A stretch of DNA of 64,000 nucleotides from Luteimonas huabeiensis HB2 (GTDB lineage: Bacteria > Pseudomonadota > Gammaproteobacteria > Xanthomonadales > Xanthomonadaceae): contig NZ_JAAN01000019.1 in NCBI RefSeq assembly GCF_000559025.1, positions 62,001-126,000 on the forward strand, given 5' to 3'. Shown piece by piece: positions 41,368 to 56,811 of this stretch. The translations under genes and the position numbers were made by a program. How positions within the stretch are numbered: position 1 is the first letter of the stretch; each line of letters starts with the position of its first letter. The notes under the pieces are model-generated. The model did no database searches. It saw only the letters and a list, made by a program, of their open reading frames with translations, and had not been told where the DNA came from.

Positions 41368-41810
41368 GGTTCGGTCCTCCGATGCTGTTCGATGCGCGCG
41401 ACGGCGCGAGCCACGTCCGGCTCGCCATAGACCACGTAGCGCAGGTCAACCACGACGGCCGGGATGCTGGTGATGCCCAGGCTCCATGCGTCGGTGACGC
41501 CCTGGTAAGCGGAAGCGATGCGACGCTGGAGGTCGGCACCGCCGCTGCCGAGCCGGCGCTTGACGATGGCCGTCGCCTGTTTGGGGTCGGCAGGCAGTTC
41601 CGCAGAAAGCTCAGCTTCGATCCGGGGCGCTGCGTCCAACTCGATCAGCCGTTCGCCGCCCATGGTCTTGACTGGGTGATGGCTGTCGGTGACGACCAGC
41701 ACGTCGGCGGCGAAGGCGGCCGGGCCGAGGATGGCAAGAGAAGCCGGCAGCGCAAAGGCCAGGACGAGGGTTCGCCAGCCCGATGCGAACCTGGAAATGG
41801 ATGCTGGCAT
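41364..41810 (-). CDS. ICE secretion protein, TIGR03757 type
   Basis: 148 residues. Signal peptide LVLAFALPASLAILGPAAFAADV, then a small domain with thioredoxin-like SIPAVVVDLRYVVYG, as in TrbC/TraW-type proteins. It matches TIGR03757. It is the first gene of the third secretion operon; the ATTGTTTG motif lies 61 bases upstream. Confidence 0.85.
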   Translation of the reverse strand: MPASISRFASGWRTLVLAFALPASLAILGPAAFAADVLVVTDSHHPVKTMGGERLIELDAAPRIEAELSAELPADPKQATAIVKRRLGSGGADLQRRIASAYQGVTDAWSLGITSIPAVVVDLRYVVYGEPDVARAVARIEQHRRTEP

Positions 41811-41870
41811 GTCGCGTGCCCCGGAAGTGGATCAGGGCCGTAGTCAAACGCGAACCCGGTGCTGTCCCAA

Positions 41871-41878
41871 CAAACAAT
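41871..41878 (-). promoter_or_regulatory. Shared ATTGTTTG core upstream of third operon
   Basis: Coding-strand context GCGATGCGCATTGTTTGTTGG. The same core, in similar context, is found upstream of the other two secretion operons (50518-50525 and 56629-56636). It is a candidate activator site; no standard sigma-70 -35/-10 pair accompanies it. Confidence 0.55.
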
Positions 41879-41927
41879 GCGCATCGCGGACTGCCCGCAT
41901 ACCTGCTTGTCTTGCGCCAATGAAGAA

Positions 41928-41947
41928 GCGGAGGCCGAGGCCTCCGC
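41928..41947 (-). terminator. Hairpin after second secretion operon
   Basis: GCGGAGGC-CTCG-GCCTCCGC on the minus strand, 8-base-pair stem, 45 bases after the stop of the DsbA-like gene. The following sequence (TTCTTCATTGG) is only moderately T-rich, so termination may be partial. Confidence 0.6.
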
Positions 41948-41991
41948 AGCAACCGATGAAGTGACGGAGCCGAAGCCCTACGGGCGACGGG

Positions 41992-42753
41992 CTACCTTGG
42001 CGCTTCGGAAGCGTCGGCTGGAGTCCCGGTGCTGGGTACGTCGGCCGTGTCGTCGGTCGCGAGCATGTCCATGGCCGACAGCAAGGCATCGCCCTCGATC
42101 GGCCCCTGCAGCAGAATCGCCTGGCCGGTCTGGCGATCGTGCAGGCGCAGCGACGGCGTGGCGGTCACGCCGCTCTTGGTGGCTTCCACGGCCTGGGCGC
42201 GGATGACCGTATCGGCCCGCTCGGTTGCCAAGCACTGTTCGATGGCCGGCGTCGATTCGGGATAGCGAAGGCCATCGGGCAGGCCCTGACCGTCGCTGCG
42301 CGTGTGGGCATAGACCCACTCGACGGCTTGCCAGAACGCGGCATGCCCGCCCGCTTCGGCGGCGCACTCGGTCAGGCGTGCCTCGGCCAACGCGGCCGGC
42401 TCGTGCGCGGCCAGCGGCAGGTGGTGCCATTGCAGGGCCACGTCGGCGTTGTTCCCGACCCACCGCTTGAGCTGCGGAAAGTACTCTTTGCAGAACGGGC
42501 ATTCCAGGTCGGCATAGAACGTAAGCGTGAAACGGCTCTCCGAGCTTCCCATCAACCACGGCGGCCCGTCAGTTCCTGTGCTGGCGACCGTGGAGGCAGG
42601 CTGCGGCGAGGACTCACCTGGCGGCCGGAGCACGAGCCAGATCAGCAGCAGGGCGCCCAACCCAGCGGCGACGGCCCAAGGCCAGCGAGGCCGCGGGCGC
42701 CGACGACGGAACGCCTGCACCTGGATAGGAATGGAGGGACGATTCTGTTCCAT
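41992..42753 (-). CDS. DsbA/DsbC-like thiol-disulphide protein of the ICE
   Basis: 253 residues. One N-terminal membrane helix (WPWAVAAGLGALLLIWLVL) anchors a periplasmic thioredoxin-fold domain with the redox motif CPFC in YADLECPFCKEYFPQLKRW and a cis-proline region GVTATPSLRLHD. It probably forms or repairs disulphides of the Cys-rich secretion proteins encoded next to it. It is the last gene of the second operon, 13 bases after the VirB4-like gene. Confidence 0.88.
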   Translation of the reverse strand: MEQNRPSIPIQVQAFRRRRPRPRWPWAVAAGLGALLLIWLVLRPPGESSPQPASTVASTGTDGPPWLMGSSESRFTLTFYADLECPFCKEYFPQLKRWVGNNADVALQWHHLPLAAHEPAALAEARLTECAAEAGGHAAFWQAVEWVYAHTRSDGQGLPDGLRYPESTPAIEQCLATERADTVIRAQAVEATKSGVTATPSLRLHDRQTGQAILLQGPIEGDALLSAMDMLATDDTADVPSTGTPADASEAPR

Positions 42754-42766
42754 GACGGTCTCCGGC

Positions 42767-45634
42767 TTACGCCAATTCCAGGGCCGGCGACTCGATGCCG
42801 CGTGCCTGGTCGATCTTCTCGGCCACCTTGAAAGCCGCTTCCAGTTCGGTGCAGCCGTACTGCTGCATGAGCTGGTAACGGTCGGCCTTCTCCTCGGGTT
42901 CGGTTTGCGCCAACGCCAAGAAGAGACTTGGAGGCACAGCCCGGAAAAGCACTTCCATGCTCTTGGAGAGGATGACGCCCTCGGTGAACTTGCCGGCCTC
43001 TTTGCGTGCCGACAGCATCAGCGCCTTCTGCGCTGGCGAAAGTTCGCGGAACCGCGCGATCTTCTCCACCTCGTCTGGCGGCATCGACAGGCAGATCCAC
43101 CACTCGATCATGTTGAGCATGGGCTCCGCGGCGCGCGGCAGGTCGTCGATATTTTGTGTGGCGAGCCAGAACCAGGCCCCCAACTTGCGCCACATTTTCG
43201 TGATCTTCACGACGTAGGGCGCGAGCAGCGGATTTTTCGTGATGATGTGACCTTCATCGGTCACGTTGATGATTGGCCGCCCCAGGAACTGATCGCGTTC
43301 GGCAATGTTGTTGACCGTGCTGATGAGGCTGATGTACGCGATCGATAGCTGCGCGTTGTAGCCCTCGCGAGCATAGGTCGCCAGATCGACCAGCGTGATG
43401 TCGGCCTCGGGCCACGGTGTGCCGTCGCGGTCGAACATCTCGCCGTCCGTCCCTTGACAGAACATGTCCATTGCATCCGCCATTTCCAGCAGCCGCACGC
43501 GCCGCATCTCAGGCAACGTCGAATCCTGGCCGCGGGCACGCAGCGCATTGCGCACGTCGCGCGTCAGCACCGTGCGCTTCTCGGCAACGCAGCGTTCGGC
43601 CGCATCGAGGATGCACTGGCGGATCAGCGAGCGATCGGCTCGTGTCATCCGAGCCTCTTCCTTGTCTTCGCCACCAGTGATCATCAGGCGCGCCGTGATC
43701 TCCAGTTCGCCCAGCACGTCGCGCTGCTCGTCGGCCTCCATCGCCGAGGCGTCCGGCGGCAGGTCCTCGTCCAGCGCATCGGCGTCGAGGGTTTGCACGT
43801 CGCTCGGTGTTTCGATCAGCCGGCGCGCGTCTGCGAATGGCGCGAGGCTGATGCCCGACCCTGGAGCCAGCTTCACCCGATTCACGGTGAGGCCAAGGCG
43901 CCGGGCGAAGTCGCTGAACAGACCGAAGCTGTTGCCTGCTTCCACGATGAACAGCCGCGGCCGGTAGATGGCCGTGACCTGGTTCAGCAGGTTATTGAGC
44001 GTGGCGCTCTTGCCGGAGCCGGTGGGGCCGAACAGGAACAGATGAGCGTTCATCTGCCGGTCCAGGCGGTTGAGCGGGTCGAAAGTGATCGGGCCGCCGC
44101 CGCGATTGAAGAAGGTGTTGCCCGGATGGCCGGTGCCCTGGCTGCGGCCCCAGGTCGGGGAGAGATTTGCCACATGCTGGGCGAACATCAGTTGGGTGAA
44201 CCAGTTCCGCCGATCCTGCGCTGGGTTGTAGCTGCACGGCAGCCAGCGCAGGTAGCTGTTCAATGGTGCAACTTCATCGTCCTCGCGCACGGGCTGCAGG
44301 CCCGCGTTGAGCATCACGTTGGCGAGATCCAGGCCGCGCCGGTCGAGTTCGGCTTCGTCGCGTCCGCGCAAGTAGAAGACCAAGGTGCCTCGATAGAGCT
44401 TGTGCGCACTGCCAATGAGCGAGCGGGCCTCCTGCACATCCTTCAGCGTCTGCTCCGATGCCAGCGTTTCCCCGACGGCCTTCTTCGCGAGGTGGTTGAG
44501 GTGCGATTCGAGGATGTCCTGGGGCGTCGCCACCATCGTCAGACACATGGTCGTGTCCTCGGGCATCTGGTCGAACAGCGTGTTGATTGCATCGCCCTTG
44601 CGGGTTTCGCCGGTCAGGTGCCCCGTACCGGGCGGCATGCGCAGCCGGTCGGTTACCAGCACGCGATGCGGCATGCCATCGAAGTACCAGGTGCCGTGCC
44701 CGGCATCGGATCGAGGCTGGCCGAAGAACAGCCGTTGGCTGAAATCCCGCCCGCTCGCCAGTTCGATCTCGCCTTCCTCCACCTCGTCGGGATAGCGGGC
44801 CAGCGCATAGAAGCGTTCCCGATCCTCAGCATCGGACCCGAGCATCGTGGGACGTGGGTTGAACCACCGCAGCAGCCAGTTGTGAACGTCGGCCGCGCCC
44901 ATGCGCCGGGCCTGGATGCCGGCGTTCGCCAGCCCGCCGCACAGGCGGTCGCAGACGATGTTCAGCATCTGCTCGGGGGTCTGTCCGCGGCGGTTCGCCT
45001 GGCCGGTGGCCCGGCGATAGACCACCATGCGCACGCGCCGCGTCTGGCCGCGCCAGCGCAGCCGCGTGACCACCGTGTCCTCGAACAGGCCTCCGGGCTT
45101 GGCCACCGCGCGCAGGTGGTGGCCGAAGAAGCGAAGGTAGAACTCGGTGAAGGCCGTGCCACGGGCGCGCGGCTGCACGTAGTCGCGCAGGGTCTGCATG
45201 TACTGGTCGAAGCTGGGCTCGTCCTGCGCGTAGAGCTGTAGCACCCAGGGGTTCTCGTCCAGTTCGTCAAACGAGTCCTGGAGCGCGTTTTCGAGCGCAT
45301 CGCGGGCATGCGCGAGCCAGCCGGGCTCCCGGCCCTCGGTTCCCAGCGGCACCAACTCGTAGAACGCCGCGACCGATTGCCCGTCCTCCAGTAGCATGGA
45401 CTTCGACTGCGGCAGGAACTCCACCCACGGCAGCAGTTCCGCGAACGACGGCGCGACGTCGTACAGTGCTTGCTCGTCCGCCATGGTCGCCGGCCTGTGG
45501 CCCTGGACAGCCGTTCCAGGTTCGGGGATGCCGGCCTGGCGCAAGGCATCGACGTGTCGCTGCCAGCCGTCCGGCTGCTCGTCATCGCCACCACCGGATG
45601 CGGCCAGCTTCGGCCAGGGGAGTTTCCAGCGCAT
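42767..45634 (-). CDS. VirB4-like conjugative transfer ATPase (TIGR03744)
   Basis: 955 residues. The N-terminal TraC/VirB4 domain is followed by an ATPase core with Walker A GPTGSGKS (536-543) and a late Walker-B-like VTDEGHII. It powers assembly of the type IV secretion channel at the inner membrane. The size agrees with the ICE-type TraC family. It starts on the stop codon of the lipoprotein gene (TGATG) and is the largest gene of the second operon. Confidence 0.94.
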   Translation of the reverse strand: MRWKLPWPKLAASGGGDDEQPDGWQRHVDALRQAGIPEPGTAVQGHRPATMADEQALYDVAPSFAELLPWVEFLPQSKSMLLEDGQSVAAFYELVPLGTEGREPGWLAHARDALENALQDSFDELDENPWVLQLYAQDEPSFDQYMQTLRDYVQPRARGTAFTEFYLRFFGHHLRAVAKPGGLFEDTVVTRLRWRGQTRRVRMVVYRRATGQANRRGQTPEQMLNIVCDRLCGGLANAGIQARRMGAADVHNWLLRWFNPRPTMLGSDAEDRERFYALARYPDEVEEGEIELASGRDFSQRLFFGQPRSDAGHGTWYFDGMPHRVLVTDRLRMPPGTGHLTGETRKGDAINTLFDQMPEDTTMCLTMVATPQDILESHLNHLAKKAVGETLASEQTLKDVQEARSLIGSAHKLYRGTLVFYLRGRDEAELDRRGLDLANVMLNAGLQPVREDDEVAPLNSYLRWLPCSYNPAQDRRNWFTQLMFAQHVANLSPTWGRSQGTGHPGNTFFNRGGGPITFDPLNRLDRQMNAHLFLFGPTGSGKSATLNNLLNQVTAIYRPRLFIVEAGNSFGLFSDFARRLGLTVNRVKLAPGSGISLAPFADARRLIETPSDVQTLDADALDEDLPPDASAMEADEQRDVLGELEITARLMITGGEDKEEARMTRADRSLIRQCILDAAERCVAEKRTVLTRDVRNALRARGQDSTLPEMRRVRLLEMADAMDMFCQGTDGEMFDRDGTPWPEADITLVDLATYAREGYNAQLSIAYISLISTVNNIAERDQFLGRPIINVTDEGHIITKNPLLAPYVVKITKMWRKLGAWFWLATQNIDDLPRAAEPMLNMIEWWICLSMPPDEVEKIARFRELSPAQKALMLSARKEAGKFTEGVILSKSMEVLFRAVPPSLFLALAQTEPEEKADRYQLMQQYGCTELEAAFKVAEKIDQARGIESPALELA

Positions 45635-46074
45635 CAGTAGTCCTCCACGCGCTCGCCCGGCATGGCGTACTGCACGCGCTGGTACAGGGGGAAGACCGTC
45701 GTGTAGCCCGGAACCGGCACGGGGTCCGTACCCGCCAGGTGCGGGTACACATACATGACGAGATCGGGGTTGGGCAGGCGCTGGAACTGGCGATAGACCT
45801 CGTTGCGCGCGGTGCGCGTGTAGCGCATCTGCTCGGCGGGCGCGGCCTGCACATCGGCCTCGGTCAGCGGCCGGCGCAGGCCCTGGCGTGCGTCGAGCAG
45901 TTGCCTGCGCGCCACCTGGCCGGCGCCACCGCCGCCGTCACCGGCGTTCTGCTGCCAGATGTCCATCATCGTGCTGTCGCCGTGGGGCAGCAGCTTTTCC
46001 TTGCTGGTGGCGCAGCCGCCGAGCGCCGCGACGGCGAGGGCCAGCGCCAGGCCCTTAGTCAAGTTCGAGAGCAT
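45634..46074 (-). CDS. Conjugation lipoprotein, TIGR03751 type
   Basis: 146 residues. A lipoprotein signal ends in VAALGGC, and the mature part has YRQFQRLPNPDLVMYVYPHLAG and PLYQRVQYAMPGE. It matches TIGR03751 and probably serves as the VirB7/TraV-like outer-membrane component. It overlaps the end of the VirB10-like gene, as is common in this operon type. Confidence 0.88.
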   Translation of the reverse strand: MLSNLTKGLALALAVAALGGCATSKEKLLPHGDSTMMDIWQQNAGDGGGGAGQVARRQLLDARQGLRRPLTEADVQAAPAEQMRYTRTARNEVYRQFQRLPNPDLVMYVYPHLAGTDPVPVPGYTTVFPLYQRVQYAMPGERVEDY

Positions 46075-47464
46075 GGCTTTCTCCTGCGCGGTGATCGACC
46101 TTGCGGCCTTCGGGATCGAAGTCGATGGCGAGCGGCTTTTCGAGGTGGACGGCGACCTTGGCGCCCGGCTGCACATAGACGGCGGCGAACGCCTGGCCGT
46201 ACAGCTTGTTCACCCAATCAGCCATGTCGCGCACGCCGCCGGCGAGGATGCGGCCCATCGCCTCGTTGCCCGAGATGCCGACGCTGCCGATGGAGCCATC
46301 GGCGCCCACGTAGGAGACCTGGCCGCTGTCGCTGTCGATGAGCGAGGCCACGCCGGCGCCCGCCGCGGTGATCAGCGCCTGCGAGCCGAGGTACTGCTGG
46401 GCATTGCTGCGACGCTCACCGCTGACGCAGGGGATGCCGTAGGGATCGCTGATCCAGCCCAGCCCATCGCGCTGCTGCTCGCTCTGCTGGTTGCCGTCGC
46501 GGTCCTCGGGAATGGTGCGGATCGTGCCGTCGTGGAAAACGAAGGTGATGCTGCGCACCTGGCCGCGCACGCACGAGAGCGTCCAGTCGCCGGAGGCGGT
46601 GCCGGAGAACACGGCGCCGGCTACATCGGGGATGTCGATGCCATTGGCGGTCAGGTTGTCCGCGCCGACAAGAACTTTGAACGGATACGGATCGTTGACC
46701 GTTCCGTCGATCGGCACGCGGCCGATCAGCGCCGTCATCGCCACGGAGCCCATCAGCGTCGAGTTGGTCGGCACGGTATAGACCGGCTTGGCGCTCTTCA
46801 CGCCTGCGGCGCGGGCGCCAGCGTTCACCACGGATTCCGCCGTTGCCTCCAGCGTGCTCTGCGCCGGACCGAAGCTCGTGGGAAAGCTCAGGCTGCCGCT
46901 GGACGAGCCGCGCCCTTCAGCCTTCTTCGCGTCGTCCGGTTCCACCCAGCGCGTGCCGCCTTCCATGCCCGCCTCGTCGCCGTCGCGCAGACCCAGGCCT
47001 ACGGGCAGATCGGCATGGCCACCACCGCGTCCGCCGATGCTGTCCAGGCGTCGCTGCAGGTCGGCGAGCAGCCCCTCGGTCTGCTGGCGCTCGGCGGCCG
47101 ACTGTTGCTGGTCGCGGCGCAGATTGGAGCGTTCGGCCTCCAGCGCGGAGGTGATGCGCTGGTCGATGGAGTTCTCGCGCTGGCGCAGCCGTTGGTTCTC
47201 TTCGCGCTGCGACTTGTTGTCCGAGAGCGCGGTCTGAAGCTCGGTGCGCAGTTGCTTCACCTGCGCAACGAGTGTCGCCACGGTGTCGCGGGGCGTATCG
47301 CCCTCGATGCCCAGTGCTTTCATCTCCTCGGGGGTGAGCTGGGCGCTCGCGTCGGTCCGCGTCGGCGCCGTCTCCCCGCCACCGGAGAAGAGCCGGATGC
47401 CGACGAACAGCACCAGGACGGCCACGGGGATCATCAGCCACTTGAGGAGGCCGTTACTGCGCAT
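46055..47464 (-). CDS. VirB10/TraB-like channel protein (TIGR03752)
   Basis: 469 residues. An N-terminal inner-membrane helix (WLMIPVAVLVLFVGIRLF) precedes a long coiled coil (about 60-145, Gln/Glu/Arg-rich) and a C-terminal TraB-like domain (GRVPIDGTVNDPYPFKVLVG, VHLEKPLAIDFDPEGRKV). It should span the periplasm and connect inner and outer membrane parts of the channel. It overlaps genes on both sides. Confidence 0.9.
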   Translation of the reverse strand: MRSNGLLKWLMIPVAVLVLFVGIRLFSGGGETAPTRTDASAQLTPEEMKALGIEGDTPRDTVATLVAQVKQLRTELQTALSDNKSQREENQRLRQRENSIDQRITSALEAERSNLRRDQQQSAAERQQTEGLLADLQRRLDSIGGRGGGHADLPVGLGLRDGDEAGMEGGTRWVEPDDAKKAEGRGSSSGSLSFPTSFGPAQSTLEATAESVVNAGARAAGVKSAKPVYTVPTNSTLMGSVAMTALIGRVPIDGTVNDPYPFKVLVGADNLTANGIDIPDVAGAVFSGTASGDWTLSCVRGQVRSITFVFHDGTIRTIPEDRDGNQQSEQQRDGLGWISDPYGIPCVSGERRSNAQQYLGSQALITAAGAGVASLIDSDSGQVSYVGADGSIGSVGISGNEAMGRILAGGVRDMADWVNKLYGQAFAAVYVQPGAKVAVHLEKPLAIDFDPEGRKVDHRAGESHALELD

Positions 47465-48365
47465 GGCGGACCTCCTTGCTGTCCGGTGCCTCGGCGTCCG
47501 GTTGCGGGAGGTGCGCGGTTGGATCGAAGCGATGGATGGCGGGAAGCAGAGACTGCGCGAGGCCGCGCCCGCGCGTCACCAGGTACAGAACCGTCGTGTC
47601 CTCGGGCGTCCCACGTGGGCCTAGCACATCGTGCTGGAAGGTCGCGGTGAGGAAATCGCCTTGCAGCACGCGCGGATCGAGACTGATCCAGCCGCTGCTG
47701 CTGTTGGTGAGACGCACGGCGGTGACCCACTGGTCTTCCAGACGCCACGAGGCGAGCGCAAGCGCGCGCACTGGCATCGTCGGCATCAGCGTGCCGAGGT
47801 TCAGGTCGCGGCGCAGGTTGACTCGCATGACGCCAGGCAGCGGTTCGACCGTGCGCAGCGGCGCATAGAGGTTCTGCGCGGCGAAGCGCGTCAGTACGAC
47901 CGGCACCGGGGTTTCGCGTTGCGCCGACCGCGCTCCTGCCCGGGAACGCATCGCAGCCTCGTCGTCGCTGTCCGACAGGTCGCCATAGCGCGCCTGCGTG
48001 TTTGCGCCTTCGACGATGCGGACGGGCTCCAGCGCAGGTTCACCGTCCTTCGCGGGTTCGGCTGCGATGTCCAGCAGGATCAGGGCGCCGGTGTCCGCGT
48101 CTTGCAGTTGCAGCCGCGTGGGTTCGATCGGCTCGCTGGCACGGAGGTACACGGCACCGCCCGCACTCTGTACGCGCAGACGCTCGCCGACGCCCGCGGG
48201 TACGCCAACCCGGACGTTCCTGTCGATGAACACGATGCGCTCCTGTCCGACCTTCAGCGGCACGGCCAGCGGCATGCGTTCCCAGTGCAGAATCTCCACC
48301 GCCTGGGCAACGGGTGCCGCGACCACGATCAGCAGCCCCAGCAGAGCGAGTACAGGGTGCTTCAT
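47454..48365 (-). CDS. TraK-like secretin-associated ICE protein (TIGR03749)
   Basis: 303 residues with signal peptide LLGLLIVVAAPVAQAVE and a mainly beta mature protein (RVGVPAGVGERLRVQSAGGAVYL). It matches TIGR03749, which in position and layout corresponds to TraK, the secretin-like layer of the core complex. It overlaps the preceding gene by four bases and the VirB10-like gene by eleven. Confidence 0.87.
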   Translation of the reverse strand: MKHPVLALLGLLIVVAAPVAQAVEILHWERMPLAVPLKVGQERIVFIDRNVRVGVPAGVGERLRVQSAGGAVYLRASEPIEPTRLQLQDADTGALILLDIAAEPAKDGEPALEPVRIVEGANTQARYGDLSDSDDEAAMRSRAGARSAQRETPVPVVLTRFAAQNLYAPLRTVEPLPGVMRVNLRRDLNLGTLMPTMPVRALALASWRLEDQWVTAVRLTNSSSGWISLDPRVLQGDFLTATFQHDVLGPRGTPEDTTVLYLVTRGRGLAQSLLPAIHRFDPTAHLPQPDAEAPDSKEVRHAQ

Positions 48366-49057
48366 GGGGTTTCTCCTTGAGACGCTTGCGGAGCCAGGCC
48401 GCCCTGGGCGGGCGCGGGGCGCGCCGGCTCGGGCGTGCCGATGCGCTGAGGCGTCCCGTCGTAGCAGTCGAGCGCCAGCCCGAACGGATTGCGGGCGGGG
48501 TCGATGTCCACCTTGGTGACCTTGATGGGGTAGCGCACCAGGGCGCGCTTGACCTGCTCGGCGCCGTAGTACTCGTCGGCGCTGATGTCCAGCGTCACCA
48601 CCCAGTCACGATCGGAGACGATGCGCACGCGCGCCGTGGGATCGTCGCCGTAGCCGCGGCCGGGGATTTCATAGATGCCGCGCACGCGCTGCCGCAACTC
48701 ACCCGTGCTGCGGCGGTAGTCGTAATCGGCCTTGAGGAACGCCTGGCAGGATGGCGTGAGGTATGCCGAGAGTGCGTACAGGTTGCGCGGATAGTCTTCC
48801 TCGCCGTTCGTGGGCCAGCGGTTGAGCGTCTGGAATACGTAGAAAGTGAAGGCATAGACCGACTCGGGCGGAACCTCCCACCACTTCCTTGTGCTGCCGG
48901 AACGCAGATCGGGGGGCACATGGATGGTCAGGTCGCGCGGGGCGCTCCACCAGCCGCCGCCCATGACCAGGGCGACGATCACCAACGCACCGGCGCCAAG
49001 GCGCAGCGTCTTGATGTGCGCCTGCAGATGGGTGATCTCGTTCTTGAAACGGCTCAT
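48362..49057 (-). CDS. TraE-like ICE protein (TIGR03746)
   Basis: 231 residues. Short cytoplasmic N-terminus, one helix (LGAGALVIVALVMGGGWW), then a periplasmic domain with VYAFTFYVFQTLNRWPTNGEEDY. It matches TIGR03746 (PFL_4703-like), comparable to TraE/VirB8-like proteins that bridge the channel. It ends in a Pro/Ala-rich tail and overlaps both neighbours as ATGA. Confidence 0.87.
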   Translation of the reverse strand: MSRFKNEITHLQAHIKTLRLGAGALVIVALVMGGGWWSAPRDLTIHVPPDLRSGSTRKWWEVPPESVYAFTFYVFQTLNRWPTNGEEDYPRNLYALSAYLTPSCQAFLKADYDYRRSTGELRQRVRGIYEIPGRGYGDDPTARVRIVSDRDWVVTLDISADEYYGAEQVKRALVRYPIKVTKVDIDPARNPFGLALDCYDGTPQRIGTPEPARPAPAQGGLAPQASQGETP

Positions 49058-49452
49058 CGAGTGCTCCTGCGTGTGGTCCAGAAGCCCGAGCGCGAGATCA
49101 GCACATGGCCGCCCACCCAGCCGGCCATCAACGGATGGCGGGTGGCAATGCGCCACTGAAGCTGGCGATACAGCCAGGTATCGGGCCGGCCGCGTTTGAG
49201 CCGACGCAGGATGCCGCCGCCCACGAACACGCCGAGGGCCACGCCCAGGACGACGAACGTGGGTGCGATCGCGATCGTGCGGAATACCCATGACAGTGGC
49301 GCGCCGACCAGCAGGCCGGCGCCACCCGAAAGGCCGCAGCAAATCCACAGCTCGTCGGCGGTGAGGCCGCGCACCACCACCGGGTGGCGATTCAAGCGAT
49401 GCGGAAGGAACGTCACCGTTCCGTCCGCACGGACGTGCTGGTGTTCGGACAT
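49054..49452 (-). CDS. TraL-like ICE membrane protein (TIGR03750)
   Basis: 132 residues. LPHRLNRHPVVVRGLTADEL is the conserved start of this family, followed by two helices (WICCGLSGGAGLLVGAPLSW; TFVVLGVALGVFVGGGIL) and a basic end. It corresponds to TIGR03750 (DUF3487), with TraL-like position in the operon. Confidence 0.88.
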   Translation of the reverse strand: MSEHQHVRADGTVTFLPHRLNRHPVVVRGLTADELWICCGLSGGAGLLVGAPLSWVFRTIAIAPTFVVLGVALGVFVGGGILRRLKRGRPDTWLYRQLQWRIATRHPLMAGWVGGHVLISRSGFWTTRRSTR

Positions 49453-49465
49453 GGCCTGTCCTCGC

Positions 49466-49825
49466 TCAGAGGATGCCGGTGGCTTCGGTGAGCAGCCAGA
49501 TGCCGATCACGAGCAGGACGGCGCCGATCGCCACGGTCAAGCCGAACTGGCCCCAGGTCTTGCGGCCGGTATGGATCTCGGCATATGTCCCGTAGGCGTG
49601 GTAGCAGACGCCCACGAACATGGAGGCCACCACCAGCAAGGCCACGAGCATGACGATGTCGTAGCCGTAGTTGCGGATGGTCTCCATGATGCCGTTGCCC
49701 GTGCCACGGCTCGGGTTCTCGATCGTCGGCAGGCCCTGCGCGAACGAGAGCGCGGGAAGCGTGAAGGCGCCCAGGGCAATGGCAGCGCGCTGGGTAAAAC
49801 GGGAAGAGAGGTTGCGGCTTTGCAT
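49466..49825 (-). CDS. Pilin-like ICE membrane protein (TIGR03745)
   Basis: 119 residues. A signal peptide (AIALGAFTLPALSFAQG) leads to a mature protein with two helices (DIVMLVALLVVASMFVGVCY; LTVAIGAVLLVIGIWLL). Size and layout resemble conjugative pilins (TraA/VirB2). It matches TIGR03745 (DUF2976). The ATG lies at 49823-49825. Confidence 0.86.
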   Translation of the reverse strand: MQSRNLSSRFTQRAAIALGAFTLPALSFAQGLPTIENPSRGTGNGIMETIRNYGYDIVMLVALLVVASMFVGVCYHAYGTYAEIHTGRKTWGQFGLTVAIGAVLLVIGIWLLTEATGIL

Positions 49826-49845
49826 GATCAGTCCTTTCAGGTGGT

Positions 49846-50079
49846 TCAGGAGAGGAGGAAGAAACTCAGGACGAGGTACATCGCGATGAAGCGGATGCAG
49901 ACGCCCACGAACTGGCGCTGGTTGAGGCGGTTCTCCGCCCAGCCCACGTAGGCCGTTCGGATGGCCCACACGCCCCAGACGAGCAGGACCGCGAACACGA
50001 CGCCGACCAGGACGGTCGCCATCGCGGAAGGCGCGATGCCGCTGTTGGCTTGAAACGCCGAGACCTGGGCGCCGTTCAT
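49846..50079 (-). CDS. Small ICE membrane protein (TIGR03758)
   Basis: 77 residues with two hydrophobic segments (MATVLVGVVFAVLLVWGVWA; FIAMYLVLSFFLL). It matches TIGR03758 (DUF3262), found directly before the pilin-like gene in ICEs of this type. Function unknown. It overlaps the RAQPRD gene (ATGA). Confidence 0.85.
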   Translation of the reverse strand: MNGAQVSAFQANSGIAPSAMATVLVGVVFAVLLVWGVWAIRTAYVGWAENRLNQRQFVGVCIRFIAMYLVLSFFLLS

Positions 50080-50456
50080 GGCTTGCCCTCCGCAGTCGGC
50101 GGCGGCGATGGCTCGATGGCCCGCTCGGTGCGGTAGTCGCCGGCCAGTTCCGAGGGATCGCGCGGTTGGGCGCGCGACGGCGTGAGGTGCGCCTGGATAC
50201 CGGCGCGCACGCGCGCCAGGTCAGCCAGAAGCCGTGGGTAGTCGAAGTGGTAGCGTTCGCCCGGCCTGACGGGGGCATGCACGGCGCTGTCCGCGACGGT
50301 GCGCTCCAGCGCGTCGAGCTGGCGCAGCGCGGAGGCCAGTTCCTGACGCTGTGCTGGGGATTCGGAGAGGGCCGTCGGCGACTGGCCCATCAGGAGGGCC
50401 GTCACGAGGAGAATGGGCACGCCGCGATGCGCAGCGCGCCAGGTTAAAGCCACCAT
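50076..50456 (-). CDS. RAQPRD-family ICE protein (TIGR01690)
   Basis: 126 residues. A signal peptide is followed by a helical region and the name-giving motif in SRAQPRDPSELAGDY. Periplasmic, function unknown, typical first gene of this operon in ICEclc/PFGI-1-type elements. The ATTGTTTG core lies 62 bases upstream of its start. Confidence 0.9.
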   Translation of the reverse strand: MVALTWRAAHRGVPILLVTALLMGQSPTALSESPAQRQELASALRQLDALERTVADSAVHAPVRPGERYHFDYPRLLADLARVRAGIQAHLTPSRAQPRDPSELAGDYRTERAIEPSPPPTAEGKP

Positions 50457-50517
50457 CGCGCCATTCCTGTGTGATCAGCAATGGGTTGATCGTGGAGATC
50501 AGGGCGGCTTCAGGCCG

Positions 50518-50525
50518 CAAACAAT
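50518..50525 (-). promoter_or_regulatory. Shared ATTGTTTG core upstream of second operon
   Basis: Coding-strand context GCGGGTTCCTATTGTTTGCGG, followed at once by a small hairpin (GCGGC-CTGAA-GCCGC). It lies in the 98-base gap between the first and second secretion operons. See also 41871-41878 and 56629-56636. Confidence 0.55.
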
Positions 50526-50554
50526 AGGAACCCGCACCCGACCGGATTGATGGC

Positions 50555-51304
50555 CTAGAGGTACTTCTTGAAGCTGGCCGCCGTCAGGCTTACTGCCAGT
50601 CCCAGCAACGCGGCGCTCGGCAGCAGGATCAGCAGCGGATGCACCGAGATCGGCAGAGCCAGGTAGGTCACCCACGGCAGCACGGCGAGCGGCATCAGAC
50701 TCGCCTTCGCCCGGTGGTAGATGAAGCCGGATTCCCGGCCCGCGCCGAAGCGGCGCACGTCCCTCCGCACGAGACCGTCGATCAAGCCGACGAAGGCTGC
50801 CGTGAAGATCAGCGGTAGCGTGAGCACCAGGACCAGCAGACGCACGAGGAAGGTCAGTGTCGTGAAGGCCGCTGCGATCAGATAGCTCTCGGTCCAGACA
50901 TAGACCTGGCTGATGTAATAGCGGAAGTTGCGGGCCTGACCATGGCTGGGCGCGCGGGCTCGTTCGGCGGTCTGGCTCATGCGCTCCAGCAGTCCCGTGC
51001 GCACGAAGACCCACTCGTAGCCGGTATCCACCAGATCGTGCGCGGTGCGCCCTGGCTCCTGCACGACCACGCTGCGCGTGAAGTGGTTGGACAGGTTTCC
51101 CAACTCGTACTGCAGCATCTGCCGGGAGTGATGCCAGCCCTGGTCCTTCCAGAAAATGTGCATGCCGACACACTCCATCACGATCGAGAACAGCAGCGAG
51201 CCGATCAGCACACCAAGCAACCGAAACGGCAAGGTGATGGTGCCGACGATCAGGCCTTGCCGACGGTTCTGTTCCCGCTGCGTGGCGGTGGCGGCGTCGC
51301 TCAT
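50555..51304 (-). CDS. ICE membrane protein, TIGR03747 type (DUF4400)
   Basis: 249 residues. Four or so helices (LPFRLLGVLIGSLLFSIVME; FLVRLLVLVLTLPLIFTAAF; LLILLPSAALLGLAVSL) with cytoplasmic basic parts. It matches TIGR03747. It overlaps traD (ATGA) and is always found beside it, so it may help the coupling protein dock to the channel; this role is inferred. Confidence 0.86.
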   Translation of the reverse strand: MSDAATATQREQNRRQGLIVGTITLPFRLLGVLIGSLLFSIVMECVGMHIFWKDQGWHHSRQMLQYELGNLSNHFTRSVVVQEPGRTAHDLVDTGYEWVFVRTGLLERMSQTAERARAPSHGQARNFRYYISQVYVWTESYLIAAAFTTLTFLVRLLVLVLTLPLIFTAAFVGLIDGLVRRDVRRFGAGRESGFIYHRAKASLMPLAVLPWVTYLALPISVHPLLILLPSAALLGLAVSLTAASFKKYL

Positions 51305-53484
51305 GGCGCTGCCTCGTCGCTGGCCGTGCCGTCCACGCTGGCGGCTGGCGCTTCGGTTGTCGCCTCGTCGAGCAGATCCTTGGGCAGGGCCACATCCTGC
51401 AAGACCGGGGAGCTGGTGAACTCCCACCACTGCGTGGCCTCGCTGTAGCTCTGGCGCATGTATCCGGCCAGTTGCTGCAGGTCTGCCGGCATCACTTCGT
51501 CCGGGTCTGGCGCCGGCAGTGGCATGCGAACCTTCCAAAGCTGGCCGCCCTGCAGCAGCGCGAAGCACTGTCCTTTGGGCAGGCCGACTACATGCGATGG
51601 ATCGATCATCGGCACGCTGGACATGCTGATGCGGTCCTGCGTGTTCGAGGTGAAGTCGGTCGCGCCGCGGATGTCCGAGCTGTCCGTCGCACCGGAGACG
51701 ATGGTGGTGGTATAGACCTCGACCTTCGGCAGTTGCTTGGTCAGCAATTCGGCGGTGGCCGTCTCCCGCACCCGAAGCATGAACAGATTGTTGAAGTTCC
51801 CGATGACCTGACCGGCCTTCGCACGGTTGCCGATGCGGGCCTCGATGTCAGAGAGGGTCTGCGTGTACGCGGTGACTTGCAGCCCGGCGCCACCGCCCTT
51901 GTTGATCAACGGCACGAATTCGTCGCCCATGAGTTCATTGAATTCATCCGCATGGACGTTGATCGGCACGCGCGCGCCAGCCGAAGCATCAGGCAGACCG
52001 TCGTCGATCCCGTGCTTATAGATATGGCCTGCGACCGATACCAGGTCGGAGAACATGGAGTTGCCGACCGCTGCGGCGACCTCGGCGTCGGATAGCGCGT
52101 CCAGGCCCACATAGACGACGGCGCGCTTCCTGATCACCTGCATCCAATCGAAAATCGGGCGCGGGTCCGCCAGGTCGGAGTAGTTCGGGGCCAGGAGCTG
52201 CGCGATCTTGCCGCTGGTCAGCTTCTCCAACAGGGGCAGGAGCGAAGCGACGATCTTGTCGAAGTAGGTCTTGTCGTAGCGGACCGCCGAGCGCAGTCCG
52301 TCGAGCACCGGGTCGTAGTTGCGAGCCTGGCTCAGGTACTGCTCCAAGGCCACGACGCGCTTCTCGCGCCCGATCATGTTCCTGGGAATGTTCTTCTCGT
52401 TGAGCTTCGCCTCTATCTGGACGATCACCTCCCAGGCCTTGGGCTCGGTCTTGGCGAAGTAGTGCTGGGCGTACTCGATGAACAGCGCGTCGATGTTGAT
52501 GACGTGCCGCTGGATCAGCATGTAGTCCGGGCGCTGCCCCAGTTCCACCAGGGCGCGGGCGATGATGTTGACGAAGCGCCATGCGAACTCGCGGAACGCC
52601 GCGCTGTTGCCTTCTCCCGAGAGTTGCCCCGCAACGCGGGTCGCCACTTCGCTGATGCGCCCGAAGCGGCCGACGGCGTTGTAGCGCGCGGAAATGTCGG
52701 GCCAGCCCAAATGGAAGACATAGAACTCGCCTTCGCGGCCTGCGCGCTTCGCCTCGACGTACATCCGCTTCAGGAGATCGGCATCGCCCTTGGGGTCGAT
52801 GACGATCACGACTTCGTGCTCGCCCGCATCGTTCTTGCGCCGGATGTCCTGGGTCACGAACAACTCGGCAAGGCGCGTCTTGCCCACGCGCGTGGTGCCC
52901 AGGACCAGGGAATGTCCGACGCGCTCGCCGAGCGGCAGGCTGACGTCCCCTTCGTCTGGTTCGATGCCGTGCAGGCGCGGTAGTCCTCCAACGGGCGGCA
53001 GAGGCCGTACCGGGTTGAATGGCACATCCCAACTCGTGAGCGCGGACAGGCGAGACAGCGGGAACGGCGCGAACTCCAGCCGTTCCTCCAGGCGCCGCGC
53101 CAGCCGGTAGGCTGGTGTCGGCTCCACGTAGCGGCGGAACTCCGGCCGATACGTCTGCATCAGCCTATGGGTGTGCTTCTGCTCCCACAGGAAGCCGCGG
53201 CCCACGAACAGGCGTTGCTGGCTGACGGGCACGTCCTTGTTCGTCATCACGTAGCGAGGCAGGCGGCGGATGTTGCGCCGGTAGCGCAGGATGGTGCGGG
53301 CGTCGCGGTAGCGGATCGCGCCGTAGGCGCCGAACGCCAGCGCGCTGCCGACGCCCATCGACGGGCTCAGCGCGAGCGACCACGGGGCCACCAGGCACAG
53401 AAACGCGGCGCCTGCACACGCCGCGACGGTGTATAGCTCCACCGCGGGACGAAGCAGAACCTCAACCGGCAGTTTCCCCGACAT
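51301..53484 (-). CDS. traD: Conjugative coupling ATPase TraD (TIGR03743)
   Basis: 727 residues. Two N-terminal membrane segments (about 15-58), then a VirD4-like motor domain with Walker A GTTRVGKT (196-203), VIVIDPKGDADLLKRMY and a Walker-B-like NVHADEFNELMGDEF. It brings the relaxase-DNA complex to the secretion channel and pumps DNA. The C-terminal 60 residues are acidic and variable, as expected for a relaxosome-docking tail. Confidence 0.95.
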   Translation of the reverse strand: MSGKLPVEVLLRPAVELYTVAACAGAAFLCLVAPWSLALSPSMGVGSALAFGAYGAIRYRDARTILRYRRNIRRLPRYVMTNKDVPVSQQRLFVGRGFLWEQKHTHRLMQTYRPEFRRYVEPTPAYRLARRLEERLEFAPFPLSRLSALTSWDVPFNPVRPLPPVGGLPRLHGIEPDEGDVSLPLGERVGHSLVLGTTRVGKTRLAELFVTQDIRRKNDAGEHEVVIVIDPKGDADLLKRMYVEAKRAGREGEFYVFHLGWPDISARYNAVGRFGRISEVATRVAGQLSGEGNSAAFREFAWRFVNIIARALVELGQRPDYMLIQRHVINIDALFIEYAQHYFAKTEPKAWEVIVQIEAKLNEKNIPRNMIGREKRVVALEQYLSQARNYDPVLDGLRSAVRYDKTYFDKIVASLLPLLEKLTSGKIAQLLAPNYSDLADPRPIFDWMQVIRKRAVVYVGLDALSDAEVAAAVGNSMFSDLVSVAGHIYKHGIDDGLPDASAGARVPINVHADEFNELMGDEFVPLINKGGGAGLQVTAYTQTLSDIEARIGNRAKAGQVIGNFNNLFMLRVRETATAELLTKQLPKVEVYTTTIVSGATDSSDIRGATDFTSNTQDRISMSSVPMIDPSHVVGLPKGQCFALLQGGQLWKVRMPLPAPDPDEVMPADLQQLAGYMRQSYSEATQWWEFTSSPVLQDVALPKDLLDEATTEAPAASVDGTASDEAAP

Positions 53485-53488
53485 GGCT

Positions 53489-54037
53489 TCATTGCTCGAT
53501 GCCGGTGGCCGTGATCAGCGCCGGGTAGTGCCGCAGGCCCAGGCGATCGGCCAGGTCGTCGCCTGCCACGGGGGCGAGCGGGACGCCTGGCGCCAGTGCG
53601 CGCAGCCGCGCGAGGGCCTGCACGGTCTCGACATTGACGACCAGCCCGACCGCGCCACGCTCGCGCAGCGAGGCGACACGGCGCTGCAACCAGGCCCGGG
53701 AAACCTCGTCGTCGCCGACGACCACGAATGGCCGCAGGCCCGGTGCCTCAATCACCCGCCGCGCAACGGTGCCGGGCGAGAGCTTGGCGCTGCGCACCGG
53801 CAGCATCGCGGCTTCGTCCGCGGGCGTGGCGGGAACCTGGGGCGTCGGGATGGGCGGTCGGACCGGGGCATCGGTACGCGGTTGGAGATTGAGGGCTTCG
53901 TAGTACGGCAGCGCCGACGTGCCGCCGCGGTCCTCGACCACGATCAGCGGCTCGCCGGCATGCGAGGCCAGCGGCAAAGCCGTCAGCAGCACGAGCAGGC
54001 CCTTCAAGGTGCGGTTGGCCAGATGGAGTTTCGTCAT
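53489..54037 (-). CDS. ICE protein TIGR03765 type
   Basis: 182 residues with signal peptide LLVLLTALPLASHAGEP and a small alpha/beta mature domain (PFVVVGDDEVSRAWLQRR; GLVVNVETVQALARLRAL). It matches the TIGR03765 (PFL_4695-like) family, encoded directly before traD in these elements. Function unknown. It overlaps the transglycosylase gene (ATGA). Confidence 0.86.
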   Translation of the reverse strand: MTKLHLANRTLKGLLVLLTALPLASHAGEPLIVVEDRGGTSALPYYEALNLQPRTDAPVRPPIPTPQVPATPADEAAMLPVRSAKLSPGTVARRVIEAPGLRPFVVVGDDEVSRAWLQRRVASLRERGAVGLVVNVETVQALARLRALAPGVPLAPVAGDDLADRLGLRHYPALITATGIEQ

Positions 54038-54624
54038 GGGGAAGCCTCCTGACGCGCGGCGAGCGCCGTGGTGGTTGGCCGCGTGCCCTGCACGCGGGCG
54101 AGGTGGCGGGAAACGCTCCGCCGATAGCGGGCTGCGGGCTCGCCACCCGCGGGGCGGTGGTAGCGGCCGATCGCCAACAGCCAGTCCTCGCCCGGGCTGT
54201 GCTGTTCCTTCAGGATCTCGGACGCGATAGCGAGGTTGCGGTACGGATCGAGCAAGTCGCACGCGCTGGTGAAGCGGTGCTTGTGGTAGCCGAGGTTGAT
54301 TTGACCCAGTCCTGCGTCGATGCGCGTGTGCGGCGTGGTACGCATCGCCTGCTGCAAGCCTGAGCAGGCCTCGGCGCGGGTGGCGAAGCGGCGCGACTGG
54401 CCGGCGACGTTGAGGGACCAGGGCCACGGGACGATGCGCCCGTTTCGCCGGATGCCGCTTTCTTGCAGGGCCACGGCGTAGAGCACGGTCGAGGGGATGC
54501 CCGCGCGCTTCGCGGCAAGCTGATAGGCCGGTGGCGGAACCTCCTGGGCAAGGGCCGCGCAGGCGTGGAGGCCAGCAGCGAGCACCAGTGCGCGCAGCGC
54601 CGCCGCTACGGCTGGCGCTGCCAT
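54034..54624 (-). CDS. Lytic transglycosylase of the conjugation system
   Basis: 196 residues. Signal peptide LVLAAGLHACAALAQE, then an SLT-like domain with catalytic Glu in VALQESGI and the typical GLGQINLGYHKHRF and DPYRNLAIASEIL. It cuts peptidoglycan locally so the channel can be built. It overlaps genes on both sides within the first secretion operon. Confidence 0.92.
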   Translation of the reverse strand: MAAPAVAAALRALVLAAGLHACAALAQEVPPPAYQLAAKRAGIPSTVLYAVALQESGIRRNGRIVPWPWSLNVAGQSRRFATRAEACSGLQQAMRTTPHTRIDAGLGQINLGYHKHRFTSACDLLDPYRNLAIASEILKEQHSPGEDWLLAIGRYHRPAGGEPAARYRRSVSRHLARVQGTRPTTTALAARQEASP

Positions 54625-55328
54625 TGGCCGTTCACCTCGCGCACGACTGCGGGCAGATCGCCGGGCAGGCCCAGCGACAGCCAGCGGCCGCCGTCATGGT
54701 TGAGCGTGATGGTGCCGCTGCGCACCCGTGCCGGATCGACGTTCGCGCGCTTGGCCCAGTCGCGGATGCGCGCGTCGTCCTGGCGACTGCCGACCATGTA
54801 CAGGTCGAACTCGGCTCCCGAGGATTGCAGGCGCTGCACGAGCTGGCCGCAGGCGGCGCAGCCGTCCTTGACGAACACCGCCGTGCGACCACTGCCGCGC
54901 CCGGCGGCGCCCGGCTTGTCATCGGGCAGGTTCACGCGCTGCATACCGGGGTTCAGGCGCTGCCAGGCGTCGTCGTAGGCACGCTGGTAGGCCAGCAGCT
55001 TTTCCACGCGGCGCGCTTCGACCTGTACCTGCAGCTCCGCGTAGCGCCGCCGCTCTTCGTCGGAACGGGCCTCGATGCCCAGCACGGACAGCGGGTCCAG
55101 GTTCGGCGAATAGACGCCGATCGGCCCCTCCATCAGTTCGCGATAGCGGGCGAACTCGTCGTCGCGCAGGCCCCATTCCTTCGCCAGCCGTGTGTCCTGG
55201 CTGTGCGCGATCTGGCTCTGGCTCGTGCGAGCAGGCTGCACGTTGGAGGCTTGCTGGGGCGGCTGCTGTGCCGAAGCCGGCAGGTGCAGCGCAGACAGCA
55301 GCAGGAGGAGGATGGCGTGGCGTTTCAT
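54606..55328 (-). CDS. ICE protein TIGR03759 type with CxxC motif
   Basis: 240 residues. Signal peptide LLLLLSALHLPASAQ; a middle part with EWGLRDDEFARYRELMEGPIG, typical of TIGR03759; a C-terminal thioredoxin-like part with DGCAACGQLVQRL. A redox or structural role in the periplasm is likely. It is the second CxxC protein of the system after the DsbA-like one. Confidence 0.86.
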   Translation of the reverse strand: MKRHAILLLLLSALHLPASAQQPPQQASNVQPARTSQSQIAHSQDTRLAKEWGLRDDEFARYRELMEGPIGVYSPNLDPLSVLGIEARSDEERRRYAELQVQVEARRVEKLLAYQRAYDDAWQRLNPGMQRVNLPDDKPGAAGRGSGRTAVFVKDGCAACGQLVQRLQSSGAEFDLYMVGSRQDDARIRDWAKRANVDPARVRSGTITLNHDGGRWLSLGLPGDLPAVVREVNGQWQRQP

Positions 55329-55344
55329 CGCGTGGCCCTCTGAT

Positions 55345-55986
55345 TCAAGGAATCGCCACGCGGCGAGTCTGCTCACCGGCCTGGAACACCGCGGCGTTTC
55401 CGTCGATGGCCTGCAAGCGCCAGGAGCCGACGGCATCCCCCGGCAGCAGCACCTGCACCTGGTCGGCGGTGAAATCGCCGACGCTCGGCGCGACGGATAC
55501 GCTGCGTTGGCCCGCGCGCAGCTCGGCACCCACGACGCGGAATGGCAATGGAGGTGGCACGAGGGTGGCCGCAACGGGTTTGGACGGGCGCGGCGGGTTC
55601 GGTTTGGTAGCACGCGCAGTTGCCTGGCGCGTCTTGATCTGCTCGACCTCTTCGCGCAGTGCTTGAAGGTCGGCGGCGGCCGCACGGTCACCCTGCGCCT
55701 GCTCGACCTTCGTGATGCGGGCTTCCAGGGCCTGGCGTGTCTCTTGCAGTCCCGCTGCCGTCGCGGGTGCAGGCCGCTGCTGCAGGGCCTGCGTGGTCTC
55801 CGCCAGGCCGGCAACCAGCGCTTCGAGGCGTTGCAGGCCGGAATCGACCCGCTCCCGGTCGGCAGGGTCGTTCATGGACTGGTAGCCCATGAGCACGAAA
55901 ACGCTGAGGCAGATCAGCCAGAGCCACAGCAGGCTCTGCGCCACCACGGAGGCGGTCGGACGCCGGGGAGTCCGCGGGGCGTTCAC
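55345..55986 (-). CDS. ICE membrane-anchored coiled-coil protein
   Basis: 213 residues from a GTG start (55984-55986, overlapping the PilL-like stop as GTGA). One helix (LLWLWLICLSVFVLMGYQS) anchors a periplasmic coiled coil (about 45-125) and a small beta domain (PLPFRVVGAELRAGQRSVSV, WRLQAIDGNAAVFQ). I do not recognise a named family with certainty; proteins like this follow PilL in ICEclc-type operons. Confidence 0.78.
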   Translation of the reverse strand: MNAPRTPRRPTASVVAQSLLWLWLICLSVFVLMGYQSMNDPADRERVDSGLQRLEALVAGLAETTQALQQRPAPATAAGLQETRQALEARITKVEQAQGDRAAAADLQALREEVEQIKTRQATARATKPNPPRPSKPVAATLVPPPLPFRVVGAELRAGQRSVSVAPSVGDFTADQVQVLLPGDAVGSWRLQAIDGNAAVFQAGEQTRRVAIP

Positions 55987-56525
55987 TGCCGGTCTCCGGC
56001 GAGCGGGAACGTCTGCACTGCCTCGGCGGCAGGCGGTTCGGGGGCCGGCGCCGCTGCAACGTCGCTGCCGGGCTGCTCGAAGCAAACCTGTCGTGCCCGA
56101 TCATCCGCGTGCAGTTCCCAGGCCGGTCCGGCCAGGGTCAGCAGCGCGTCGCGCAAGGTCATGGGGCCAAGATGTAGGTGCGCCACCGGCAACGGCAGTC
56201 CGTACAGATCGATCACCACATGTGCCGTTTGGCAAAGGCCGTAGCCGCTGCGCTTGAGCACATGCCGCAGCCCATCGCCGACAGTGGCGCGGGCATCCTC
56301 GGGCATGGACACGTCGATGGTCTGCAACAGCAAGTCGCGCTGTGCCGCTGTCGGTGCCAGCTCGACCAACGTGTAGCGGCCGTAGCGCACGACGGGAATG
56401 AACTCGGGTGCCTCGTGTTCGGTGGCCGCCGAGACTTCCTCGATGCCGTCGGATACGAGCGGCGCCGTGGTGGTCGCGCAGCCGCCAGCCAGCACCGACC
56501 AAAGCAGGCCAAGGAACCCGGTCAT
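55983..56525 (-). CDS. PilL-family ICE lipoprotein (TIGR03748)
   Basis: 180 residues. The lipobox is LAGGC. The mature part reads RYGRYTLVELAPTAAQRDLL and HVLKRSGYGLCQ, as in the PFGI-1-class PilL family (TIGR03748), named for similarity to a type IV pilus protein. I chose MTGFLGLLW because it starts a clean signal peptide; a start 15 codons earlier (56570) is possible. It is the first gene of the first secretion operon. Confidence 0.86.
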   Translation of the reverse strand: MTGFLGLLWSVLAGGCATTTAPLVSDGIEEVSAATEHEAPEFIPVVRYGRYTLVELAPTAAQRDLLLQTIDVSMPEDARATVGDGLRHVLKRSGYGLCQTAHVVIDLYGLPLPVAHLHLGPMTLRDALLTLAGPAWELHADDRARQVCFEQPGSDVAAAPAPEPPAAEAVQTFPLAGDRQ

Positions 56526-56628
56526 CAGGCGGCGTTCGGGGTGGTGAAACCAGGGTGGAGAGGGGCACATAGCTCGGCGTCCTGAAACATCGAGCCCTCA
56601 CCATCGCCGCTAGGGTCGCGCGCGGCAG

Positions 56629-56636
56629 CAAACAAT
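56629..56636 (-). promoter_or_regulatory. Shared ATTGTTTG core upstream of first operon
   Basis: Coding-strand context GTGATTCGCATTGTTTGCTG, upstream of the PilL-like gene (104 bases from the preferred start, 59 from the alternative). It is the third occurrence of the core (also 41871-41878 and 50518-50525). Confidence 0.55.
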
Positions 56637-56763
56637 GCGAATCACGCCCCGTCCGGTTTTCCGGGGCGGCATTGGGGAGGCGGTCATTCCCAGCAATCTC
56701 TCGCGATGCCCATCGGGCCATTGGCCAGGATGGTGAGCAGCCCGAACTTTGGAGATCAATGGT

Positions 56764-56789
56764 AAAAAAAAACGGCCCCGAAGGGCCGT
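56764..56789 (-). terminator. Intrinsic terminator after the 147-residue ICE gene
   Basis: On the minus strand ACGGCCC-TTCG-GGGCCGT, 7-base-pair stem with a UUCG loop, followed by a run of nine T. It lies 22 bases after the stop at 56812. This is a classic rho-independent terminator that separates the accessory module from the secretion operons. Confidence 0.95.
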
Positions 56790-56811
56790 CATGGTGCAGG
56801 GAATGCGCGGA

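Follow-up and report, generated by a model that had tools for sequence, protein, structure and literature searches.

A conserved bipartite element upstream of three secretion operons in an ICEclc-type element of Luteimonas huabeiensis HB2, a probable transfer-competence promoter element

The integrative and conjugative element (ICE) ICEclc serves as the model system for transfer that takes place in an all-or-none manner and only in a small minority of cells. A 27-bp motif was reported in eight out of nine bimodal ICEclc promoters, which are mostly co-expressed in the same cells, and BisDC activates every tested promoter but PbisR in the absence of the ICE (Sulser et al., 2022; PMC9286271). In that report, the sites bound by BisDC still awaited confirmation, a status that the BisD work of 2025 may have changed. 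For the same ICE, a 14.5-kb transcript that starts from ORF81655 and is cleaved near ORF73676 has been proposed (Gaillard et al., 2010; PMC2892462). We analyzed a 64,000-nucleotide stretch (the window) of the Luteimonas huabeiensis HB2 genome (assembly GCF_000559025.1, contig NZ_JAAN01000019.1, positions 62,001 to 126,000), in which the word ATTGTTTG stands in front of three secretion operons as the right end of a bipartite element of about 27 bases. The operons belong to an ICE of the ICEclc family, which has homologs of bisR, alpA, parA, bisD, and bisC in a bisR-alpA-parA-bisD-bisC block, an ORF95213-inrR-topB block, and a syntenic type IV secretion system with traI. The three sites are probably copies of an ICEclc-family transfer-competence promoter element that is read by an activator and switches the three operons on together.

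The core ATTGTTTG has three exact copies in the window, all on the minus strand, the strand that also encodes the secretion genes, and no further copy in 161,823 bases of its contig. The gap 1 copy (41871-41878) precedes the operon that starts with a TIGR03757 family gene (41364..41810, start 41810), the gap 2 copy (50518-50525) precedes the operon that starts with a RAQPRD family gene (50076..50456, start 50456), and the gap 3 copy (56629-56636) precedes the pilL2-traD operon with its first gene pilL2 (55983..56570, start 56570); these minus-strand genes were assigned by curated family models and occupy the positions of ORF57827, ORF67231 (promoter P67231), and ORF73676 of ICEclc, respectively. 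From the 3' end of the core to the ATG there are 61, 62, and 59 bases in gaps 1, 2, and 3 (68, 69, and 66 bases if counted from its first base). The initial annotation had located the three cores correctly, always on the coding strand, and was right about their proximity to the first starts; the spread of about 60-100 bases that it gave is in reality tighter. Gaps 1 and 3 do share a longer match, CGCATTGTTTG, as it had noted, and its remark on missing sigma-70 boxes also holds, since the only consensus promoter (TTGACA and TATAAT, 16-18 bases apart) between 41300 and 57400 lies on the other strand and in none of the gaps. ATTGTTTG is the sole 8-mer common to all three 120-base gaps, whereas among 20,000 triples each, any shared 8-mer was observed 25 times with Markov sequences and 308 times with random real 120-base segments from the contig. 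Dinucleotide shuffles of the window contained 0.63 copies of the core on average and reached three copies in 1 out of 100 cases. Whether the core is frequent elsewhere, a concern raised at the outset, has a divided answer: the entire 4.3-Mb genome holds 13 copies and the contig only three, yet the bare 8-mer occurs 107 times in the 9.7-Mb genome of Paraburkholderia xenovorans LB400 and 30 times in another genome, G671. It was dropped as a genome-wide marker for this reason; being common in other hosts, the 8-mer alone is unspecific, whereas the longer element is specific.

This longer element has the form AA..CGG-N16-ATTGTTTG and is common to the three gap classes, occupying positions 41871..41897, 50518..50544, and 56629..56655 of the minus strand in gaps 1, 2, and 3, respectively. 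Relative to the core, the left box AA..CGG covers about -23 to -17; a spacer of 16 bases separates CGG from ATTGTTTG, and in several classes the trinucleotide CTG follows the element. The two boxes show partial complementarity to each other (0.52 at the best axis, 0.08-0.45 at other axes), which is only suggestive of dyad symmetry.

To assess conservation of the element, we scanned named genomes for the TIGR03746 protein family and retained 80 of the 373 confirmed places as loci, among which 7 (RAQPRD), 14 (TIGR03757), and 42 (pilL) had no usable gap. Located at a nearly invariant distance from the start, the exact core is present in 72 of 73 usable RAQPRD gaps, 61 of 66 TIGR03757 gaps, and 33 of 38 pilL gaps, counts that are not independent events because the loci are homologous. 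Across the 1.45 Mb of these loci, 166 out of 168 same-strand cores fall in the three gaps, and six cores lie on the opposite strand. The Pseudomonas loci L116 and L122 each contain two minus-strand cores 944 bases apart outside the three gaps. Of the 11 gaps that lack the exact core, 10 have retained a variant of the entire element near the usual place, the exception being the pilL gap of L070. Gap alignments anchored at the start codon comprised 18, 43, and 34 distinct sequences and were limited to genes matched from residue 1-2 with at least 60, 60, and 70% identity, a filter that removes nine of the 11 gaps lacking the exact core; in these alignments, the core ranks first, first, and fourth among 156-157 eight-column windows. 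Core positions have a mean majority frequency of 0.996-1.0, compared with 0.58-0.78 for the sequence preceding the element; at 0.90-0.92 between the core and the ATG, the downstream stretch is conserved as well. A motif search over the homologous gaps of related ICEs, as proposed in the initial annotation, hence finds the core conserved, and the same was observed in seven further elements of the close clade, where all 16 gaps examined carry the element at 52-84 bases (p of 0.02 or less against shuffles). In eight distant elements, whose VirB4 proteins are 37-49% identical, the element was found in none of the 14 gaps examined. This survey left out genome G379, and the G-numbered genomes may overlap with the 80 named loci. 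The DUF2857/BisC family is represented in 17 out of 22 genomes, including the distant ones with weaker scores. A one-to-one tie between the element and the presence of BisC is refuted by these BisC-bearing distant elements; among the elements examined, the DNA element is confined to the ICEclc clade.

The ICEclc sequence itself was analyzed in genome G671, in which a test stretch occurs twice at 100% and which we take to be P. knackmussii B13. With 73676 as an anchor, its gene ends coincide with the ICEclc ORF numbers 100033, 98147, 97571, 95213, 91884, 73676, 68987, 67231, 59888, 57827, and 53587. The cores are found at 74342, 67683, and 58342, in front of ORF73676, ORF67231, and ORF57827, the first of these genes being the presumed pilL (PMC2892462). 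The three gap sites are the top three matches of the family profile over ICEclc, followed by topB, a ranking that is partly by construction since the profile was built from those classes. An expectation-maximization (EM) search on six published bimodal ICEclc promoters, which used no family data, lands on the element in five of them (alpA, ORF88400, ORF81655, ORF67231, and int). Gap 2 is orthologous to P67231, where this de novo element falls; the sites of gaps 1 and 3 fit the family profile and not clearly the six-promoter model. When the ORF57827 region was added, the element was kept in four of seven regions, with ORF57827 and ORF81655 placed elsewhere, so de novo discovery on one ICE is fragile. 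A nearly identical relative of ICEclc, locus L110 of our set, resides in LB400 (PMC6050381).

The inrR transcript of ICEclc starts 25 bases before the ORF95213 start codon and is preceded by a -35 box TTGACT and a -10 box TGTCGATCCT (PMC2892462). Both published boxes of this promoter, PinR, are unchanged in LB400, and the -10 box is also unchanged in G671. A variant of the core occupies positions -43 to -36 from the mapped start, where it abuts or overlaps the -35 box and would be placed like an activator site; its spacing and the matches in relatives make it likely to be the same element. On this identity depend the transcript starts that we predict for the window by transfer from PinR, at 41835, 50482, and 56593 of the minus strand in gaps 1, 2, and 3, i.e., 25, 26, and 23 bases before the ATG. 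Such a short leader of 23-26 bases would explain the near-constant distance between the core and the start codon. Another RACE (rapid amplification of cDNA ends) position for the inrR start, 96,204, is given in Table 1 of PMC2892462, and the S3 legend of PMC9286271 mentions 152 bp from the motif to the PinR start. We have withdrawn the latter value as a proof of the shared PinR site (96204 minus 96052), because the place chosen by EM (96192-96166, 149 bases above the start 96017) fits it at least as well as does the core measured from 96,204; the published motif place in PinR may differ from the variant found here.

We propose that the activator, most likely the ICE's own BisDC, would recognize AA..CGG-N16-ATTGTTTG directly upstream of a poor -35 box and recruit the host RNA polymerase to a non-consensus -10 box, and that transcription would begin about 25 bases before each first gene. 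The three secretion operons and the units with variant sites would then be switched on jointly in the small number of cells that enter the BisDC-on state. At the element, BisC perhaps catches the sliding BisD clamp, a detail drawn from sentences that cite the respective work. Co-expression, BisDC dependence of the ICEclc promoters, and the PinR start are taken from the published studies; we infer the contact of BisDC with the element from clade, regulon membership, and position.

Weaker variants of the element precede topB, inrR, int, ORF81655, ORF88400, and traI. In the ICE of the window, the family profile matches CTTGTTTG before topB, TTTGTTGA before the inrR operon, and ATTGATTG before the equivalent of ORF81655 just right of the window, and a Pint-like place on the opposite strand, ATAGTTGC, resembles Pint of ICEclc. 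Two more ICEclc-type elements are arranged in tandem on contig C14 (about 50-210 kb; loci L015-L021 and L140), each with a bisR-alpA-parA-bisD-bisC block and versions of the DNA element, which gives three ICEs in this genome and makes cross-activation possible. Among the C14 cores, the one at 175011 lacks the left box and is not a clear promoter site; the other, at 109559-109566, has AATGCGG at the right spacing and lies between the tandem elements with no clear gene just downstream, so that it is not clearly a promoter either. The firmest of the additional sites is topB, which attains the floor p=0.005 in all four regions compared (LB400 and the three ICEs of the HB2 genome) and scores of 27.0 in G558 and 26.1 in G567. 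This strong copy is located at L003:12089-12096 (76089-76096 in window numbering; 93977 in ICEclc), 81 bases before topB, where an extra promoter was already suspected (PMC2892462). The inrR variant is found at 63-73 bases throughout, with p of 0.005 on the window's contig (C19), 0.010 and 0.100 in the C14 elements, and 0.169 in LB400. The inrR operon begins with the ORF95213 equivalent (L003:13340-14122), which matches the Pfam family AcaB, named transcriptional regulator; the next gene, at the inrR position, matches DUF3158. A weak diverged copy, TTTGGCGG (35791..35798, minus strand, p=0.025), lies 58 bases before the traI relaxase start at 35740; LB400, C19, and one C14 element have the traI site. 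Eleven operon-internal starts (VirB4, TraD, BisC, and InrR in three elements) score from -7.4 to 1.4 and have no site.

Terminator-like hairpins with a T-run are found on the minus strand in gap 1 (41928..41947, 50 bases upstream of the core) and gap 3 (56771..56790, 135 bases upstream of the core). The region scanned contains 11 such hairpins versus 6.6 in shuffles, thus single matches mean little. Among distinct core-bearing flanks of relatives, they occur in 29 of 32 TIGR03757 and 18 of 20 pilL flanks versus 0-1 in shuffles, and in none of the 39 RAQPRD flanks; the ICEclc hairpins upstream of pilL and ORF57827 are visible by eye in the printed sequence. Their conservation suggests that transcription is started anew at operons 1 and 3. 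If so, the break observed by reverse transcription PCR at ORF73676-74436 (PMC2892462) would reflect termination and not cleavage. The UR73676 and P58432 reporters and the array slope, given below, speak against this reading.

The presence, conservation, near-fixed spacing, and bipartite form of the element and the hairpins can be read from the DNA. The suggestion of the initial annotation, that an ICE activator may raise the three operons together, is partly supported by the conserved core and its occurrence in five of six bimodal promoters; binding of an activator here and promoter activity of the gap 1 and gap 3 sites are presumed. A number of observations count against a shared activator-read element. 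The -10 box of gap 1 fits poorly, and BisC homologs are present in distant elements that lack the DNA element. The PinR variant of ICEclc alone is not significant (p=0.17 in LB400), the alpA and ORF88400 sites are weak, the traI site is missing from G558, G567, and one of the C14 elements, and ORF84835, an LB400 region taken as a control, reached p=0.04. In the ICEclc profile search, ORF81655 (15.0), traI (12.0), and Pint (10.6) score no better than unexplained matches (16.7, 14.9, 12.8, and 12.5). The six-promoter EM model misses PinR, selecting 96192-96166 in the inrR region instead, and gives pilL 8.4, topB 6.8 (within background), and ORF57827 only 0.2; two untrained unexplained places outscore pilL (9.2 at 46188 and 8.8 at 59951). 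This order of scores may be the reason why, in the account given in PMC9286271, no further motif was reported on ICEclc beyond the bimodal promoters. The case for pilL, topB, and ORF57827, whose sites are presumably active, therefore draws on family conservation and not on ICEclc alone. Finally, the array signal has no slope change at pilL (PMC2892462), and of the published reporters, UR73676 (pilL region) gave no bimodal signal and P58432 was weak (PMC9286271).

A bolder version of the activator model is that BisDC drives the pilL-traD operon, the TIGR03757 operon, and topB as separate units, each from its own element, with a terminator ahead of each of the two operons. The ICEclc map with one 14.5-kb transcript and no pilL motif would then need redrawing, the element would be the docking point where BisC captures the sliding BisD clamp beside the -35 box, and one BisDC could fire all three ICEs of the genome. 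We regard this version as tentative. In a rival and unlikely scenario, only the RAQPRD site is active, the TIGR03757 and pilL sites are weak or silent, and the operons behind them are fed by read-through from upstream promoters with cleavage of the transcript at pilL. It accommodates the reporter data, in which P58432, downstream of P67231, was inconclusive (PMC9286271), as well as the cleaved transcript proposed in PMC2892462, and neither of the two sites is singled out by the six-promoter model. Nevertheless, both are about as conserved family-wide as the RAQPRD site, no other place in ICEclc matches the profile as strongly as these two, the hairpins are found upstream of these two operons and not of the RAQPRD operon, and RNA-seq coverage rises upstream of ORF73676 (PMC9286271).

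It is improbable that the word is a core-promoter box for the stationary-phase sigma factor RpoS with no ICE activator reading it. PinR is RpoS-dependent (PMC3395598) and the core abuts the -35 position; however, the conserved left box, at about -66 to -60, lies outside the usual core-promoter contacts, the element is restricted to one ICE clade, and BisDC raised the tested promoters other than PbisR without the ICE (PMC9286271). Also improbably, the sites serve for loading or holding the sliding ParB-like BisD clamp in the manner of bisS and are not promoter elements as such, since loading sites would need neither a near-fixed distance to start codons nor a single orientation to the gene; palindromes sought between parA and bisD as bisS boxes revealed none that is shared. 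That the 8-mer is due to chance, or to nothing more than shared ancestry of the gaps, is hardly credible, even though it is no rarity in some hosts (e.g., LB400), the loci are homologous, and the stretch between the core and the ATG is conserved as well, given that the element was kept despite divergence of the sequence preceding it, that it persists in co-resident ICEs with RAQPRD proteins 50% identical, and that it recurs before unrelated genes such as topB.

The activator-read promoter element that we favor is of the same kind, and stands at the same promoters, as the 27-bp motif of PMC9286271, and the EM search of the same width on six of those promoters lands on our element in five; as compared via promoters and not motif letters, the two overlap at least in part. 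The shared-regulon idea is largely published, and our gap 2 site corresponds to P67231 of that regulon. RAQPRD (ORF67231) is a known regulon unit, whereas the regulon list has no promoter entry for pilL (ORF73676) or TIGR03757 (ORF57827) as such; unlike in the published description, family-conserved sites are also located before ORF73676, ORF91884 (topB), and ORF57827. The conserved sites before pilL, topB, and perhaps ORF57827 are apparently new, and in the other literature searched, we found no description of the motif besides PMC9286271. P58432 is said to carry the motif (PMC9286271), and the only profile match above 3.1 in ICEclc 59150-58250 is the 58342 site; P58432 may denote the ORF57827 promoter. 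For PinR, the published boxes, which the variant overlaps at the -35, were called RpoS-like, and the section devoted to them names no activator site (Gaillard et al., 2010; PMC2892462). A family-wide element fixed relative to a mapped start provides bases to alter and predicted starts to map, and through it the operon of the coupling protein TraD would join the directly controlled units. BisC has been likened to FlhC in print. The FlhDC-like activators SetCD of SXT and AcaCD of IncC are alike in outline, a resemblance of systems and not of compared motifs, in that an FlhC-like activator switches on the transfer operons.

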